Source: Prostheceraeus crozeri | Taxonomy: Eukaryota > Platyhelminthes > Polycladida > Euryleptidae | Reading direction: 5' to 3' | NCBI GenBank assembly: GCA_907163375.1 | Contig: CAJQUW010000498.1 | Span: 310,001 to 374,000, forward strand | Length of the DNA stretch: 64,000 bases | In this document: positions 1 through 51,168 of the stretch, one piece after another | Layout: each line of letters starts with the position of its first letter | Numbering within the stretch: position 1 is the stretch's first letter | Program-made: the position numbers and the translations under genes | Notes under the pieces: generated by a model | Told to the model about the DNA's origin: nothing | Seen by the model: the letters and a program-made list of their open reading frames with translations, nothing else | The model's database searches: none

Positions 1-540
1 AAAGGTTGGGAACCCTTGCTTTAATCGCTTGATATCTTTAAAATTTCAATCAGGGATTCCTGCTACTTTTTTGATGCTAGTAATAGGGTGTCAAGTCATG
101 ATGGTCTTCGTGCAAAATGGTCTTCATAAAACTGCTCATGGGAAAGCCACAAAATAAAATTTTGATAACAGAAACAACATCAGCAACATCTAAAACCTAC
201 GTATCTGTTGAAATTTTTGCCGAGAACTCAGTAGGCTTTGGCAGTAGAACTATTTACGCTTACTTCCATGACCTGACAGAGACCATTGACTATCTTGGTG
301 AAATTTTAACAGAAACCTAAATGTACGTTTTATATGCTGCTGAAAACGTTTCTGTTACTTAAATTCCAATTCGTAACCTTCCCAGACACAGTTTTGTCAA
401 AACTTTGTTTCATGACCTTTTTGTTAAAAGACCATTTTGACTTGGAGACATCAATGGTGCAACATAAGAAATATGCACATGTAGCTTACAAAGTCTGCGA
501 GAAAATGTCGATTTTAAATATCAATTCTATCTTTCGTCTG
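1..540. other. AT-rich stretch, no gene recognised
   Basis: Short open frames occur on the plus strand near 117-320 and 334-576. Neither has a recognisable domain or bordering splice signals, and both look like chance. I see no repeat structure. Confidence 0.5.
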
Positions 541-548
541 CATACATG

Positions 549-630
549 CCCACCATGGCTTGAACCGAATCCATGACCTTTAGCATTGAAATCCAGCACG
601 CTAACCGCTGAGCTATCACGCCTCGTGAGA
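549..630 (-). repeat. tRNA-like SINE head
   Basis: On the minus strand there is a good Pol III A box (TAGCTCAGCGG) and, about 45 bases further on, a near-consensus B box (GGTTCAAGCC). The spacing is that of a tRNA gene. The acceptor arms do not pair and the anticodon stem is imperfect, so this is better read as the head of a tRNA-derived SINE or a tRNA pseudogene than as a working tRNA. I could not place the 3' end of the element. Confidence 0.5.
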
Positions 631-639
631 TTCAAGAAT

Positions 640-1230
640 GAACTCTAATACCTCATTGTCATTCTAGCTATGTCTTGAAGTATCACATCCAACTCTAATG
701 ATTGCACGTTTTATCATGCTAAAGGAAGACCTCATTTGAATTCTGACAGGACAAATTTACAAATGATTTTATTGCTTTAGTACATTTTTCACTGATGACA
801 TTTAAAGCGAATCACAGCGTTAGTTTCCGTTCACTATCATGCAATAACGGTTGATTGATTACACGATAATTAATTTTCGCTACTTTGTAATAAAGGTGCA
901 ACCAATGGATTTCAGACAACTCGCAATTATTTCCAGCGAGATTGCTTGTTTAATAGTTGATGACTGTTGTAAAATTCACTACAGCTGATCACCAGGACAT
1001 CATGATTTGTAAATTTTCAATTGATCTTATATGAAGAGATTCAATTTTCGAACAAAATCAGATTTTGAAAAATCTTCTAATTTTGATAAATTCTGCACTA
1101 AGTATATGTGCATGTATGTATGTTTGTGTTGGTAAATTTAAGTGAGTTGTATTAGACTTACACTGTAAATAGTAGACTACGAAAACGAACTACAAAACGA
1201 TAATAGCAGCATACTACTTTTTCGGGTGCA
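640..1230. other. AT-rich stretch, nothing recognised
   Basis: No open frame of note, no inverted or tandem repeat, and no splice-bounded coding segment seen on either strand. Confidence 0.4.
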
Positions 1231-16798: not shown

Positions 16799-18190
16799 CA
16801 CTGACATAAATAATGAAACCAACTATCATTGACTTAAATGGAAGTTTGTTTCATTTTTTTCTATGGTTTGAGATGATACCTCGCTTTCTATGTATCACCA
16901 TTGAACTCCATATGATAAGGGAAATGATATAGGACCATCAAATTTCAAAATTTGATATTGATCACAGTAACAGCTAGAAGTTAAACAGAATCACCACCTA
17001 CTGCTGGCCAGATTTGACTTATGAAATGGCGCACGATAACTTTACCAGAGGAATGGCAATTGGGATGATGCGTTGTGGGCAAAGTTCTACAACTGTTGCG
17101 AAAGAATTGAAAATTTCAAGGGTCGTTGTATGGAGGTGGTGGTGTCGTTGGAAAGCAGAAGGAAATGTGGAAAAGAAGAACGGATCAGGAAGACCAAGGG
17201 TATCATCCAAGCGGACAGATGCACGCTTAGTTTTAGCTGCTAAAAGAAACAGATTTGTGTCCGTCCCGAAGCTAATTGCGTACTGGAAGGTTGCTGGGAA
17301 CGTTGCCTGTAGCGTTCGAACTGCATATCGAAGATTGCGAGAAGCTGGTATACAGTCTCGACGACCCGCTGTGAGAACTCCGCTGAGCCTGGAACATCGA
17401 AGGAGACGAGTGACGTGGTGTCAAGGTCATCAGTCGTGGAGTGACAGTCAGTGGGAACGTGTGCTCTGGACTGATGAATCGAGGTTTACTCTCGATTTCA
17501 ACGATGGTCGGATCCGTGTTCATCGCTTGCCAAGTGAACGATTTGCTCCATGTTGCGTCCAAGAACACGACTGGTACGGCGGCGGTGGTGTCATGGTTTG
17601 GGCCGGTATCTGGCACAGTGAAAAAACACCAGCAATCGTAGTTAAAGGAACATTGACAGGACAGCGATATGCTGACGAGATCGTGACACCGGTCGTGGTT
17701 CCAACAGTGACATCGAATCAATTGATTTTTCAGGATGACAACGCAAGGCCCCATCGAGCTTCAGTGGTGTCTGACAGGATAGCAAGCAGTGGAATCCCAA
17801 CCTTGGAATGGCCCTCACGTTCTCCCGACCTCTCCCCCATCGAGCACTGCTGGGATGAACTTAGTCGCAGAGTGAGGGAGAGGTACAACCACCCACTAGT
17901 GTCTTTGAAGATGTTGACCGACAGACTGATCGAGCAGTGGAACCTCTTAGACCTGGCATTCATCCAGCGACTGTGCTCATCCATGCCCTCACGCATCGAT
18001 GCCTGTTTGGATGCTCGCGGTGGTCACACCCGTTTCTAACTTAAGTTGATAAAATCATGAGTATCAAATTAAATGTTTTTGAGTAAAGCATTCGAGTTCT
18101 CCTTTTACAAACAACAAACAAACGTACAGTACAACCAAGTTTAAGTCATAAGTATTCATATCAGGACTTGTTTCATTCTTTTTGTCACTG
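16799..18190 (+). mobile_element. Tc1-like DNA transposon with intact transposase
   Basis: Terminal inverted repeats lie at 16799-16821 and 18168-18190, beginning CACTGAC and CAGTGAC and matching at 19 of 23 positions. A further shared ATGACTTAAA-type motif lies inside each end. The roughly 1.4-kb length is normal for Tc1-like elements. A TATA follows the right end (18193-18196), as expected for TA target duplication; the left flank reads AT and seems mutated, so the boundaries are good to about 6 bases. Confidence 0.82.
17026..18039 (+). CDS. Tc1-like transposase, 337 aa, DD34E
   Basis: The first ATG in frame gives 337 residues, the usual size for Tc1-like transposases. The N-terminus has two helix-turn-helix segments (GMMRCGQSSTTVAKELKISR about 14-33; SVRTAYRRLREAGIQ about 96-110) with a GSGRPR linker at about 53-58 as an AT-hook-like motif. 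Catalytic residues are visible as D150 (WTDESRF), D238 (FQDDNARPH) and E273 (SPDLSPIEHCWDEL). D238 and E273 have 34 residues between them, giving DD34E. A glycine-rich box (YGGGGVMVWAG) lies between. There is no stop or frameshift, and base composition is clearly GC-richer than the flanks, which fits a recent insertion. A TTG 12 bases upstream is in frame but not a likely start. Confidence 0.93.
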   Translation: MAHDNFTRGMAIGMMRCGQSSTTVAKELKISRVVVWRWWCRWKAEGNVEKKNGSGRPRVSSKRTDARLVLAAKRNRFVSVPKLIAYWKVAGNVACSVRTAYRRLREAGIQSRRPAVRTPLSLEHRRRRVTWCQGHQSWSDSQWERVLWTDESRFTLDFNDGRIRVHRLPSERFAPCCVQEHDWYGGGGVMVWAGIWHSEKTPAIVVKGTLTGQRYADEIVTPVVVPTVTSNQLIFQDDNARPHRASVVSDRIASSGIPTLEWPSRSPDLSPIEHCWDELSRRVRERYNHPLVSLKMLTDRLIEQWNLLDLAFIQRLCSSMPSRIDACLDARGGHTRF

Positions 18191-23529: not shown

Positions 23530-23667
23530 TAGATAAGCAATCTATTAGTAATATTTTGAAATTTCAGCTGATTCATGGCAGTAAGTCCTAGACTATGTTG
23601 CTAAATAATCCAACTCCTGTCAAGAAACCTGGAAAAATTATGCTTTACAATTTACTTTACATTATAT

Positions 23668-23820
23668 TCACGCTCTCAACAGATGGTCTGGTGGCCTTGC
23701 GATTATAGGATGTGGTTGCAAATCCTCTAGCTCCAATGTCACTGGTTCAAATGTACCAAAGGCTGATGAGGCTCAGCAGGATGAAACACGTCTTGTAGTG
23801 GTTGCATCTGTTGAACTTTG
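23668..23820 (+). mobile_element. tRNA-derived SINE (family H) with decayed hammerhead core
   Basis: Starts ATTCACGCTCTCAACAGATG, as the 34196 copy does. A tRNA-like head follows (A-box region TGGCCTTGCGA; B box GGTTCAAATG) with Leu/Ser-like layout. Next comes CTGATGA (23763-23769), a stem-II segment, GAAAC (23783-23787) and GTC (23790-23792), the order of a hammerhead ribozyme core. Stem II (GGCT/GGAT) and stem I pair poorly, so this copy is probably inactive. It ends CATCTGTTGA then ACTTTGAT, like the minus-strand copy at 33951-34062. Confidence 0.75.
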
Positions 23821-23829
23821 ATAAATTGT

Positions 23830-24999: not shown

Positions 25000-25700
25000 T
25001 CGCCACTTTGTTGTTCACTGAAATTCTCTGTAGGCCATCTGATTCATGAGTTTCGACAAATTTCGCATCAGGCAATTAAATGAATATAATGGACAACGCG
25101 TCGGGAGATAATTTTGTCATCAGATGTAAAGTAGAACCCCCCCCCCCAAGGTTTTGGTTGAAAAGCTTTTTTAAATCAAAAGTCAAATCATATGGGCTTT
25201 CGGCTTCCAGAGCCTTCAAGCGCTCGATGGCAACCAAAATCGATGGTTGTGTCATGTAGTCTTAGTGAGTTTAAGCAATCAAATACACGTCATCACAGTT
25301 ATTCATTTACTTTCGGCTGTGACAATGGGACGTTCTACCTAAAAGCGCTTATTCTATTATGGTGTTGGAAGGAAGCGTCGTCCATAATTTGCTATTTGAT
25401 TTGAAGAATAAGTCAGAAGAGGGACTGACATTATTCGATGCACACTGCGTATAGTTATTGTATTGCTGTCTATTCCTCTAGCAAACCATCAACCATCAGC
25501 TGCTGTCGAACAATAGATCGAATATGATTGGCATTTGAGAGAGCGGAAGGAATCACCAGCAGACAATTTCAACTTCTGCTGACTTTGAGGTCAACTTGCT
25601 TATCGAGGTTTATAAAGACAACAGATGACACCAGCTGTGTTTTGTTAATAGCTTATAGCAGTCAGAGTAGGTACAAGAGATGTATGGTACAATTTTTTTA
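25000..25700. other. AT-rich stretch with an 11-C run
   Basis: A run of 11 C lies at 25137-25147. No other feature recognised. Confidence 0.4.
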
Positions 25701-27323
25701 AAGGAAAAGTAGAAGGGTATTCAATGAACCGTTGCATTCAAAAATTTTCAGAATTTTATCAATTTCATCATGAAATATATTCCAATTGCTGGCTACCGTA
25801 TATGCTCTACTCAGCATTCCAATAACCAGACCCCGGTGCCACGCTCTTGGACAGTTTGCTTCAAAATTTAATAGCACATTTGTGAACGTTTCTTTTCTAA
25901 AGATGCTAGTTTCCAAATTATTCGTAATATTTATTTTAACATCCAAGAATGCTATACTATTGCCTCTAATATCTACAGTAAATTTTAAATTTTTGTGTTG
26001 TCTATTTAAAAATTGGTGAAACCGTTCTACTTTCTTTATATCATCAAAAACGCAAATGCAATCATCTACATATCTTGCGTAATAAAGTGGACTGCATTCT
26101 TCATTCATCCAATTTTGTTCCATATGTGACAAAAATAGATTTGCGAGTGCAGGAGTAAGGGGGGAGCCCATACTTACACCATCTATCTGCTTAAACATTT
26201 GGTCATTAAATAAAAATTGACCACTCGTGGCAAACAGGCACAGTTTTTTAAATACATCCCTGCCAAACAAAGGCTCATTAGTTGAATTCTTATCATAGAC
26301 TAAATTAGCCGCCAGCTGAATTGTTTCATTTACAGGTATGTTCGTGAACAATGATTCAACATCATAGCTAATTAAAATATGTTTGTCATGAAAAAGTTCT
26401 TGATTTTTATTAATTTCTTCTATCAAGTGAGAGGTAGAATTCAACATATGTTACGAATTTATATGTGGTTTTATTAGATTATCTAAAATTTTTGCCAAAT
26501 TGTAACTTGCAGAGCCAATAGTACTTATTATTGGTCTCATAGGTTTGTTATCTTTGTGCACTTTCACCGTACCATAGAGCCTACCGGGCTCACAGCCAGA
26601 AGGACTAATAAACTTGTACGTTTTCTCATCAATATATCTACGCAAATACTTATAAATGTAACGATACAATCTGCCTTCCTCGGTTACTGTCGGATGTTTG
26701 CGAATGTCATCCTCATCATATTCAATTTTTTGGAATTTAGTTACGTCTTTTAAAATATCACTCATTTTTTTGTTGTACTCAAATGAGTTGACTATCACCA
26801 ATCCATTCCCCTTATCAAAGGAACACACTTTTATATCCTTGCGTTTCGCCAACTTTTCCAGTACTTTGTGGGTTTCACGATTGTATTTATCATTACATAT
26901 CTTTTTTCCAGCTTTAAAGAAGTGAGTTGCAGCTTCCTGAATTTCACGTTTTACCACTGGTGTTAAATTAAATTCATTTTCATTTTTAATGTTAACAGCA
27001 ATAACTTTTTCTAATTGGTATTTAATCTTATCATTACAAATATTTTTAGGAATCCCACTATGTTTAAAGCCAAACCTTAGTACTTCACGCTCTTTTAGGG
27101 TTAATTCATAGTTACTCAGATTAACATGGCAATCCGGAGATTTGATCCGATTATTTAACCATAACCGTTTTAGTTTGTCATTATGTTTATTTTCAACCTC
27201 CTTCAACTTAGGTTGAATACTACGTATCACTGTCAGTTTTAAGACCACAAGTCTAAACCAGGACAATTGATCCTTAATTTTGCAAGTAATGTCATCAATT
27301 TGTTTGATGTTATTTTTAACCAT
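25698..27323 (-). pseudogene. Penelope-like element reverse transcriptase, one in-frame stop, no endonuclease
   Basis: The likely start is the ATG at 27321-27323; the codons upstream of it only read the inverted repeat backwards. The frame runs to a single TAA at 26448-26450, then continues in the same frame to 25698. RT landmarks in order: LYGTVKVHK, PMRPIIST, LISYDVESLFTNIP (first Asp), GVSMGSPLTPALANLFL, YARYVDDC (catalytic YVDD), LKFTVD and IAFLDVKI. The D-V-x-S-L-F-T-N-I-P and YVDD forms are typical of Penelope-like elements rather than LINEs or LTR elements. The GIY-YIG endonuclease usually found at the C-terminus is absent: the frame ends shortly after EIDKILKIFECNG. The nonsense codon and missing nuclease mean this copy is probably not autonomous. 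Confidence 0.9.
25727..25947. repeat. 221-bp inverted repeat, left copy (3' end of Penelope-like ORF)
   Basis: This covers the 3' end of the minus-strand RT frame and is repeated in inverse orientation at 27372-27592. I counted only about three differences over 221 bases. Penelope-like elements carry terminal repeats (pseudo-LTRs) that may be direct or inverted, which is the simplest explanation. Confidence 0.9.
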
Positions 27324-27371
27324 TTTTTGTACATATTTAAATGTACTTAAATGTACTTTAATGTATTTTAA

Positions 27372-27592
27372 CTTGGATGTTAAAATAAATATTACGAATA
27401 ACTTGGAAACTAGCATCTTTAGAAAAGAAACGTTCACAAATGTGCTATTAAATTTTGAAGCAAACTGTCCAAGAGCGTGGCACCGGGGTCTGGTTATTGG
27501 AATGCTGAGTAGAGCATATACGGTAGCCAGCAATTGTAATATATTTCATGATGAAATTGATAAAATTCTGAAAATTTTTGAATGCAATGGTT
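27372..27592. repeat. 221-bp inverted repeat, right copy
   Basis: Reverse complement of 25727-25947, so the plus strand here reads the RT 3' end again (ITNNLETSIFRKETF..). It continues past the repeat border into GYTKNFVLKIVSVFNEHRAHY, sequence missing from the minus-strand copy. A 14-base word, GGTATTCAATGAAC, flanks the whole unit in direct orientation at 25716-25729 and 27624-27637. Confidence 0.88.
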
Positions 27593-29849: not shown

Positions 29850-29915
29850 CACTAGGTGACATGCCACGCGTGATTACGGAACACCCCAAACATCCTTGGT
29901 TAAGGACATTCTATG
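29850..29915 (+). repeat. single-ended copy of MITE M30
   Basis: It carries CACTAGGTGACATGCCACGC and then GTGATTACGGAACACCCCAA, the left terminus of the element at 30087-30546, but no matching right end nearby. Confidence 0.7.
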
Positions 29916-30084
29916 ACACATCTATGAGGACATTCTGCAATGATACAAGCATATAACCAAATAATTTTGGAAGAATAATGTTTGCTGCACGAGCTGTACT
30001 TTCAATGGATGTGAACAAGCAGTACCTTAATAAACATCATCTAAATTCAAGCAGAATTCAAGCTTCCTTTCACTGCATTCAAAC

Positions 30085-30548
30085 TTCACTAGGTGACATG
30101 CCACGCGTGATTCACGCGTAATTACGGAACACCCCAAACATCCGTGGTTAAAGACATTCTATTCTTCTACCCGCGTACATACGCGCTGCACTAAGAGTCA
30201 GAAATCACTTGATCTGATGCTGTTAAAACATGGGAAATGTTTATGAATACGCCCGGGCGAGCGTTTATAGTTTGCGCGTCGTCCACGGTTGTCTGCGCTG
30301 CCGCTTGAACCACGGATGAACCGCTAAGCATGTTCTGTCTTCCCTGAGCATGAAATTGAGGTCCTATCACATTGCATGCAGACACATGAGACGCAAAGTC
30401 TATATAACAGGACTGCCAACTATGCTAGCTTATATAAGAGATATTGCAACAATATCCCGCATAGCCACGGATGTTTGGGGTCATGTGTAATTACGCGTGG
30501 TTCACGAGTGAATTACGCGTGATTGAGCGTGGCATGTCACCTAGTGAA
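30085..30548. mobile_element. MITE M30, 464 bp, 22-bp perfect terminal repeats
   Basis: The ends are TT then CACTAGGTGACATGCCACGC at 30085-30106 and the exact complement at 30527-30548. Inside each end a second inverted stretch holds CACGCGTAATTAC and CCCCAAACATCCGTGG. The interior is GC-richer than the surroundings and encodes nothing I recognise. No clear target-site duplication beyond the repeats. It lies between the CATAAGCC-rich arms. Confidence 0.8.
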
Positions 30549-33942: not shown

Positions 33943-34065
33943 TATATATATATATGAATCAAATCTCAACAGATGTAACCACCACGCGACATGTTTCGGC
34001 CTGTTGGGCCTCATCAGTCGTGGGTAGGTTTGAACCAGCGACGTTGGAGCTGGAGTAATGAGCAG
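33943..34065 (-). mobile_element. tRNA-derived SINE (family H), 5'-truncated copy with hammerhead core
   Basis: On the minus strand it begins inside the tRNA-like head (CCAGCTCCAACGTCGCTGG, then TTCAAACC from the B box). It runs through the hammerhead core listed separately and ends CATCTGTTGAGATTTGATTC, then an (AT)n tail. It matches the 23668 copy from the B box to the end. It stands head-to-head with a head-only copy at 34196. Confidence 0.8.
33982..34024 (-). ncRNA. hammerhead ribozyme motif (type I, very short stem III)
   Basis: Read on the minus strand: stem I 5' side CCACG (34023-34019) then A; core CTGATGA (34017-34011); stem II GGCC-CAACA-GGCC, 4 bp with a 5-base loop (34010-33998); core GAAA (33997-33994); C, AT, then GTC (33990-33988); stem I 3' side CGTGG (33986-33982). 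All invariant core bases (C3 U4 G5 A6, G8 A9, G12 A13 A14, A15.1, U16.1, C17) are present. Predicted cleavage is 3' of 33988. The stem I pair next to the core is an A-G mismatch. Within one molecule stem III is only 2 bp, but ACATGT is self-complementary, so two RNAs could form a 6-bp stem III. Animal retroelements are known to carry such weak-stem-III hammerheads. Activity is inferred, not shown. Confidence 0.78.
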
Positions 34066-34195: not shown

Positions 34196-34285
34196 ATTCA
34201 CGCTCTCAACAGATGGTCCGGTGGCCATGTGGTTAGAGGGTATGCTTGCACGTCCTCTAGCTCCAACGTCGTTGGTTCAAACATA
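34196..34285 (+). mobile_element. tRNA-derived SINE (family H), head-only copy
   Basis: Starts ATTCACGCTCTCAACAGATG, has A box TGGCCATGTGG and B box GGTTCAAACA, with CCTCTAGCTCCAACGTCG between. Matches 23668-23755, then diverges right after the B box, so it lacks the hammerhead portion. The head resembles class II (Leu/Ser-type) tRNA. Confidence 0.75.
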
Positions 34286-51100: not shown

Positions 51101-51168
51101 GGTGGATTTGAACCACCGACCTCTGGCATTCGAGGCCAACGCTATACCAACTGAGCTATCGACGGGCG
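51101..51168 (-). tRNA. tRNA-like sequence, CGA at the anticodon position (pseudogene or SINE head)
   Basis: On the minus strand both internal promoter boxes are consensus: A box TAGCTCAGTTGG and B box GGTTCAAATCC. A T-arm (GGTGG-TTCAAAT-CCACC) and an anticodon arm (TTGGC-CTCGAAT-GCCAG) fold well, with CGA in the anticodon position. CGA would decode serine, but serine tRNAs have a long variable arm and this one has a short one. The expected acceptor halves (CCGTCGA and AAAAAGC) do not pair. So it is more likely a tRNA-derived SINE head or tRNA pseudogene than a working tRNA. Confidence 0.5.

Follow-up and report, generated by a model that had tools for sequence, protein, structure and literature searches.

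In the blood fluke Schistosoma mansoni, tRNA-Gln-like SINEs similar to Sm-alpha are described, and hammerhead motifs lie within Sm-alpha; in the available part of that report, Sm-alpha and Sj-alpha are short dispersed non-autonomous elements with a type I hammerhead (PMC2770079). SINE-like elements with type I hammerheads also feature in the accessible text of another study, in which the Sm-alpha relative W36.2_W001 measures 335 bp (PMC8490949). The metazoan non-LTR retrozymes of Acropora, Mytilus and Ambystoma, too, are small non-coding repeats with a type I hammerhead. Retrozymes are described as tandem repeats with linear and circular RNAs of ~170-400 nt, and the axolotl hammerhead HHR_Amex1 has a weak helix III in which one pair closes a palindromic tetraloop; an axolotl hammerhead of this build cuts weakly in monomer form, and its dimers cut better (PMC7229834, available sections). 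Penelope-like elements (PLEs), in turn, carry minimal type I hammerheads that lack helix III or the loop-loop contacts (PMC7761336; PMC11167929, both in the parts available). For PLEs and Terminons, in which stem III is very short, dimer cleavage has been proposed in the accessible text of a 2020 review, according to which metazoan retrozymes bear no conserved motif revealing their helper, with PLEs and Terminons as the likely candidates (PMC7761336).

A motif of this class lies on the minus strand of a 64,000-nucleotide stretch of Prostheceraeus crozeri DNA (hereafter the window), at positions 33977-34030 (copy A), where it was delimited by sequence, the Rfam family HH9, a descriptor scan and alignment with a second copy (copy B). 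Read from 34030 to 33977, this strand consists of the outer stem I arm AACC (34030-34027), TAC, the inner stem I arm CCACG (34023-34019), A 34018, the core segment CTGATGA (C3-A9; 34011-34017), the 4-bp stem II GGCC/GGCC with its loop CAACA (34010-33998), the core segment GAAA (G12-A15.1; 33994-33997), CATG, T, the cleavage-site C 33988, G 33987, the second inner arm CGTGG (33986-33982), T, and the second outer arm GGTT (33980-33977). Inner stem I has 5 pairs and outer stem I has 4, the latter beyond a TAC/T internal loop. A 34018 and G 33987, which stand between inner stem I and the core and cleavage C, respectively, form an A.G mismatch at 1.1/2.1 that adjoins the core. The type I features of copy A are an intact CTGANGA, GAA(A) and (U)H cleavage site, a stem II, and an open-ended stem I. 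All of the letters that a preliminary description of this DNA had read as a hammerhead (CTGATGA, GGCC/GGCC, GAAAC, GTC, and CCACG/CGTGG) are found at the minus-strand positions it gave, and so is the A-G mismatch that it placed in stem I beside the core. By the hammerhead rule, cleavage presumably falls 3′ of C 33988 (GTC), the position predicted earlier. The self-complementary ACATGT (33989-33994, minus strand), which shares A 33994 with GAAA, would leave stem III of the monomer with one A-U pair closing a CATG loop, and would give a 6-bp stem III in a dimer. Having just one pair in stem III, closed by a palindromic loop, the motif differs from Sm-alpha and Sj-alpha and resembles HHR_Amex1 (PMC7229834, available sections); a very short stem III is also common to PLEs and Terminons.

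The best Rfam match of copy A is HH9 (RF02275), which scores 28.6 bits where the gathering threshold is 52, with an E-value of 0.005 per 64 kb and 5.4e-5 per 701 bases. Inner and outer stem I are parted by an internal loop in both, and the HH9 fit includes outer stem I together with this loop, whereas stem III and the loop lengths are not alike. At the gathering score, the Rfam scan of the window returned a tRNA match alone, with HH9 below threshold. Limited weight attaches to the gathering cut-off in this case, since complete-looking phage hammerheads (L049 and L002, discussed below) also escape Rfam. A covariance model had been proposed as a check; its answer is divided between a low window-wide E-value and a score well under gathering. 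Both strands of the 64-kb window were scanned with a strict descriptor, and the copy A motif was the only site found. Strong sites, defined by at least 4 pairs in stem II and at least 5 in stem I, occurred in 7 of 300 simulated first-order Markov sequences of 64 kb (mean 0.023 per 64 kb). The looser motif CTGANGA..GAAA is at background level, with 10 occurrences in the window versus 6.6 expected.

The motif sits in a dispersed repeat of ~157 bp, of which the window holds one full and two partial copies; the repeat context proposed earlier is thus borne out by the two copies other than A, of which one is full and one partial. Copy A (33958-34055, minus strand) is a 5′-truncated tail with a B-box-like GGTTCAAACCT, the hammerhead, and the 3′ end CATCTGTTGAGATTTGAT. 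Copy B (23666-23822, plus strand; 157 bp) is the sole full-length copy found, and runs from the 5′ end through the head and a hammerhead core (CTGATGA...GAAACACGTC; 23763-23792) to the 3′ end. Copy C (34196-34285, plus strand) is a head only, inverted with respect to copy A, with an A-box-like TGGCCATGTGG and a B-box-like GGTTCAAACAT. Copies A and B have the 3′ end in common, and copy C does not have the 3′ part. No further convincing copy was found in the window by nhmmer with all filters off, and no tandem copies occur in the 64 kb. In this respect the repeat, seen as dispersed single or partial copies, differs from the tandemly arranged retrozymes and their RNAs (PMC7229834, available sections); at 157 bp, it also differs in length from W36.2_W001 (PMC8490949, accessible text).

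Copies C and A (34285-33958) are separated by 140 bp and overlap by 31 bp in element coordinates. A twin-primed 5′ inversion is expected to give a geometry of this kind, and the two copies are possibly one insertion. No target-site duplication was found; the search yielded only two 5-mers at copy B and, at copy A, no match of 6 or longer. Elsewhere in the window, repeats of ~40-50 nt occur in direct and inverted copies at 29864-30510, and a SYDE-type C2/RhoGAP exon, in keeping with an animal genome, is also included.

Alignment of copies A and B covers 98 bases with 19 differences (19% diverged). These are distributed as 0/13 in the core, 6/12 in the stem I arms, 3/8 in the stem II arms, and 10/65 elsewhere; the probability of zero core differences by chance is marginal (P 0.049). 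Of the nine standard pairs of copy A in inner stem I and stem II, three are unchanged in copy B, three have become G-U through a one-sided change, and three are broken, one of these being altered on both sides. This leaves 6/9 pairs standard, none of them retained through a two-sided change, so that between these two sequences the core is conserved but no compensatory stem change is seen, a result that speaks, without deciding the matter, against the stem covariation proposed earlier as a check. The A.G mismatch beside the core in copy A is a G.U wobble in copy B, with both sides changed. Copy B gave no Rfam hammerhead match, and its stem III letters are ACACGT. The self-complementary hexamer of the preliminary description is therefore present in copy A, but not in copy B, where the letters are non-palindromic.

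These data bear on whether an ordinary SINE or MITE merely reads as a hammerhead in one copy. The simulated strong sites give chance some room, all the more as many windows were presumably scanned; copy B, with three broken pairs and no Rfam hammerhead match, is in keeping with such a resemblance, as is the best fold of copy A, which differs from the hammerhead (see below). However, the Rfam E-value is low both window-wide and locally, the outer stem I and internal loop fit HH9 in addition to the core, and the core is unaltered in a copy that is 19% diverged. We consider a chance resemblance rather unlikely. The hammerhead identity proposed earlier is instead supported by the window-wide E-value and the core kept in copy B, and the sequence of copy A is probably that of a real but decayed type I hammerhead.

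The head of the repeat had been read as tRNA-like. It carries an A-box-like TGGCCATGTGG and a B-box-like GGTTCAAA with 1-2 mismatches; of these, copy A keeps just the B-box-like one, with 1 mismatch. Pairs of boxes of the quality seen in the repeat family (at most 1 and at most 2 mismatches) number 20 in the window versus ~14 expected (mean of 10 simulations). The Rfam tRNA model matched none of the head copies at E-values up to 10, and ARAGORN called nothing in the heads at default settings; at ps60, the laxest setting, it made a single unnamed call, in copy B. The silence of ARAGORN is weak evidence, because the program also missed a tRNA-like stretch at 51101 that scores 42 bits. The boxes are therefore loosely present, as claimed, but near chance frequency, and neither Rfam nor default ARAGORN confirms a tRNA head; a tRNA origin of the head is plausible but unproven. 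Sm-alpha, by comparison, is related to tRNA-Gln, and with it a tRNA-related SINE with a hammerhead is not new, so that the 'distinctive system' of the preliminary description was an overstatement (PMC2770079, in the part available).

Two other tRNA-like stretches were seen in the window. That at 51101-51158 (minus strand; Rfam 42.2 bits, model positions 8-63) is perhaps a separate SINE head or a tRNA pseudogene, and no CTGATGA core was seen in the 400 bases downstream of it. The other, at 540-640 (minus strand), has an A/B-box pair at 615/566 and is called as tRNA-Leu by ARAGORN only at the relaxed setting ps75.

A feature absent from the preliminary description is that the ends of the element are complementary. 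The 5′ arm TCTCAACAGATG (copy C, 34204-34215, plus strand) and the 3′ arm CATCTGTTGAGA (copy A, 33964-33975, minus strand) are perfect complements over 12 bases, with a pairing energy of -22.3 kcal/mol that none of 2000 random pairs equalled. In copy B, 10 complementary end bases are left (-15.2; 20/2000 random pairs as strong), and the best fold of this copy pairs its end bases. In a linear transcript, the terminal helix would enclose both head and ribozyme, while the two arms would make up a hairpin if the RNA were circular or in tandem. Such ends might also be the 12-bp inverted repeats of a DNA transposon (MITE) in which the hammerhead is incidental, and the window does contain a Tc1-like transposase frame (16978-18039, plus strand; 353 aa from stop to stop, in which Tc1-type transposase domains are recognised). 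However, conserved sequence extends past the inverted arms on both sides (ATTCACGC and TTTGAT), the target-site duplication that was looked for was not found, and copy A is 5′-truncated, all of which makes a MITE very improbable.

The stability of the motif depends on how much sequence is folded. The 58-nt copy A motif is more stable than all of its shuffles (z -3.47, 0/200 as stable), the 98-nt stretch is less striking (z -2.01, 8/200), and the head of copy B is of ordinary stability (z -1.11, 27/200). In a nearest-neighbour model, which ignores tertiary contacts, the hammerhead of copy A without stem III has an energy of -16.7 kcal/mol, 5.4 less favourable than the best fold (-22.1), whose pairs involve core bases. 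In the ensemble, the stem I pair 2.2-1.2 has a probability of 0.004. Between two strands, the double hammerhead (-38.0) gains 4.6 kcal/mol over a pair of monomer hammerheads lacking stem III (-33.4), but stands 9.0 above the best fold (-47.0). When both units share one strand, in tandem across a 30-base linker, the double form (-34.2) is just 0.8 better than two monomers (-33.4), and the best fold (-44.2), which again pairs core bases, beats it by 10.0. By these energies, pairing in stem III is favourable, and more so with two strands than with one, yet other folds win. The models argue against efficient cutting by copy A without excluding cutting. As for the earlier proposal that the RNA cleaves as a dimer with a 6-bp stem III, the gain of the double form speaks for it, while the competing folds and the non-palindromic letters of copy B speak against it; dimer cleavage appears possible, with weak support from the modelled energies.

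At 25698-27545 (minus strand) of the window there are two adjacent stop-to-stop ORFs, the downstream one with Pfam RVT_1, which look Penelope-like by their motifs. A 221-nt piece recurs there in inverted orientation (25727-25947 and 27372-27592, 99% complementary). Comparison of the reverse transcriptase ORF with solved retron, group II intron and other reverse transcriptases gave weak matches (best E 9e-5), a comparison that is not a test of Penelope-like identity. The repeat could be a remnant of the pLTR of a PLE, its hammerhead being of the minimal PLE type and the repeat itself a PLE fragment or a satellite mobilised by a PLE. Besides the ORF, this would agree with the minimal type I hammerheads of PLEs and with the naming of PLEs and Terminons as likely retrozyme helpers (PMC7761336; PMC11167929, available parts). 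Yet the strict scan of the window, with the PLE flanks included, gives no second hammerhead site, the repeat has no match to the PLE region in within-window searches, and its outer stem I and internal loop are unlike the minimal PLE type. The PLE hammerhead, moreover, lies in the pLTRs of elements that encode a reverse transcriptase, whereas the repeat is short and non-coding, and has no sequence link to the PLE of the window. An origin as a PLE remnant is accordingly judged unlikely.

Pattern searches were extended to viral contigs and prokaryote genome contigs. The combination of B box, core and GAAAC occurs in 8 stretches of the former and 40 of the latter; 9 of these 48 sites have at least 3 stem II pairs, and two (L002 and L006) look like complete hammerheads. 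These two are IMG/VR contigs in which the hammerhead (L002, 7966-8015, and a like stretch of L006) has the stem I GTTACA/TGTAAC; ARAGORN found no tRNA in either locus, and L002 has no Rfam match at gathering. A brief look at L003 and L004 showed a 4-pair stem II. A stricter core pattern and a head pattern returned no site. A 17-base tail pattern returned 61, two of which have CTGATGA or CTGACGA at most 80 bases upstream, and by eye neither is a hammerhead. With nhmmer, copies A, B and C matched hammerhead cores best among 110 loci (L049, E 0.0029; L006 and L002, E about 0.1), and nothing matched the whole repeat. No relative of the whole repeat was thus found outside the window by the viral and prokaryote contig patterns or among the 110 loci. 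The closest core is that of Roseobacter phage CRP-125 (L049), in which 27 of 28 letters are identical to the core and stem II of copy A. By eye, positions 569-638 of L049 read as a type III hammerhead that looks complete and falls within the first 100 bases of a gene annotated as hypothetical, and Rfam lists no hammerhead there at E-values up to 5.

On balance, the 157-bp repeat seems best explained as a small SINE-like or retrozyme-like retroelement that is non-autonomous and bears a type I hammerhead close to the 3′ end, and we hold this reading to be somewhat probable. It is supported by the HH9 E-value, the single strict site, the fold z-score of the 58-nt motif, the unchanged core and the six standard pairs of copy B, as well as by the identity with CRP-125, the complementary ends, the 5′ truncation of copy A, the reverse transcriptase ORF in the window, and the axolotl parallel. 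It is weakened by the score under gathering, the lack of a match for copy B and its three broken pairs, the A.G mismatch, and the better non-hammerhead fold; the lower stability of the longer stretch, the lack of a target-site duplication and the marginal P of core conservation weaken it further. The copies present in the window are probably decayed, and either weak or inactive.

For such a retroelement, the following course of transcription, cutting and circularisation with an outside helper may be envisaged. Transcripts would arise from an internal tRNA-like promoter or by read-through, and would fold with their ends paired, over 12 bp with the arms of copies C and A or 10 bp in copy B. The ribozyme would then cut after GTC. 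Since stem III amounts to one A-U pair capped by the palindrome CATG, a single unit would do so weakly, and tandem units or a dimer would do so better, as reported for the axolotl hammerheads. Cutting would release a unit-length RNA with 5′-OH and cyclic-phosphate ends, which might be circularised or reverse transcribed by the enzyme of another element. A more elaborate version, which we regard as quite improbable, is that of a very small (157 bp) SINE with a Pol III-type promoter and a terminal helix, in which the hammerhead, owing to its palindromic stem III, cuts only in tandem or dimer form. This would lead to sensing of multimers or copy number, and to RNA circles that carry their own promoter.

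No report in the open-licence literature was recognised as describing this hammerhead repeat family, and the available portions of PMC10886601, PMC8704543, PMC4918200 and PMC6155905 contain nothing on a tRNA-headed hammerhead SINE. The repeat is likely to represent a new family of hammerhead-carrying repeats, similar ones being known from blood flukes and salamanders. A family that combines a recognisable head and fixed ends with a dimer-type ribozyme would provide defined RNAs with which promoter activity, monomer and dimer cutting, and the source of the reverse transcriptase may be tested.
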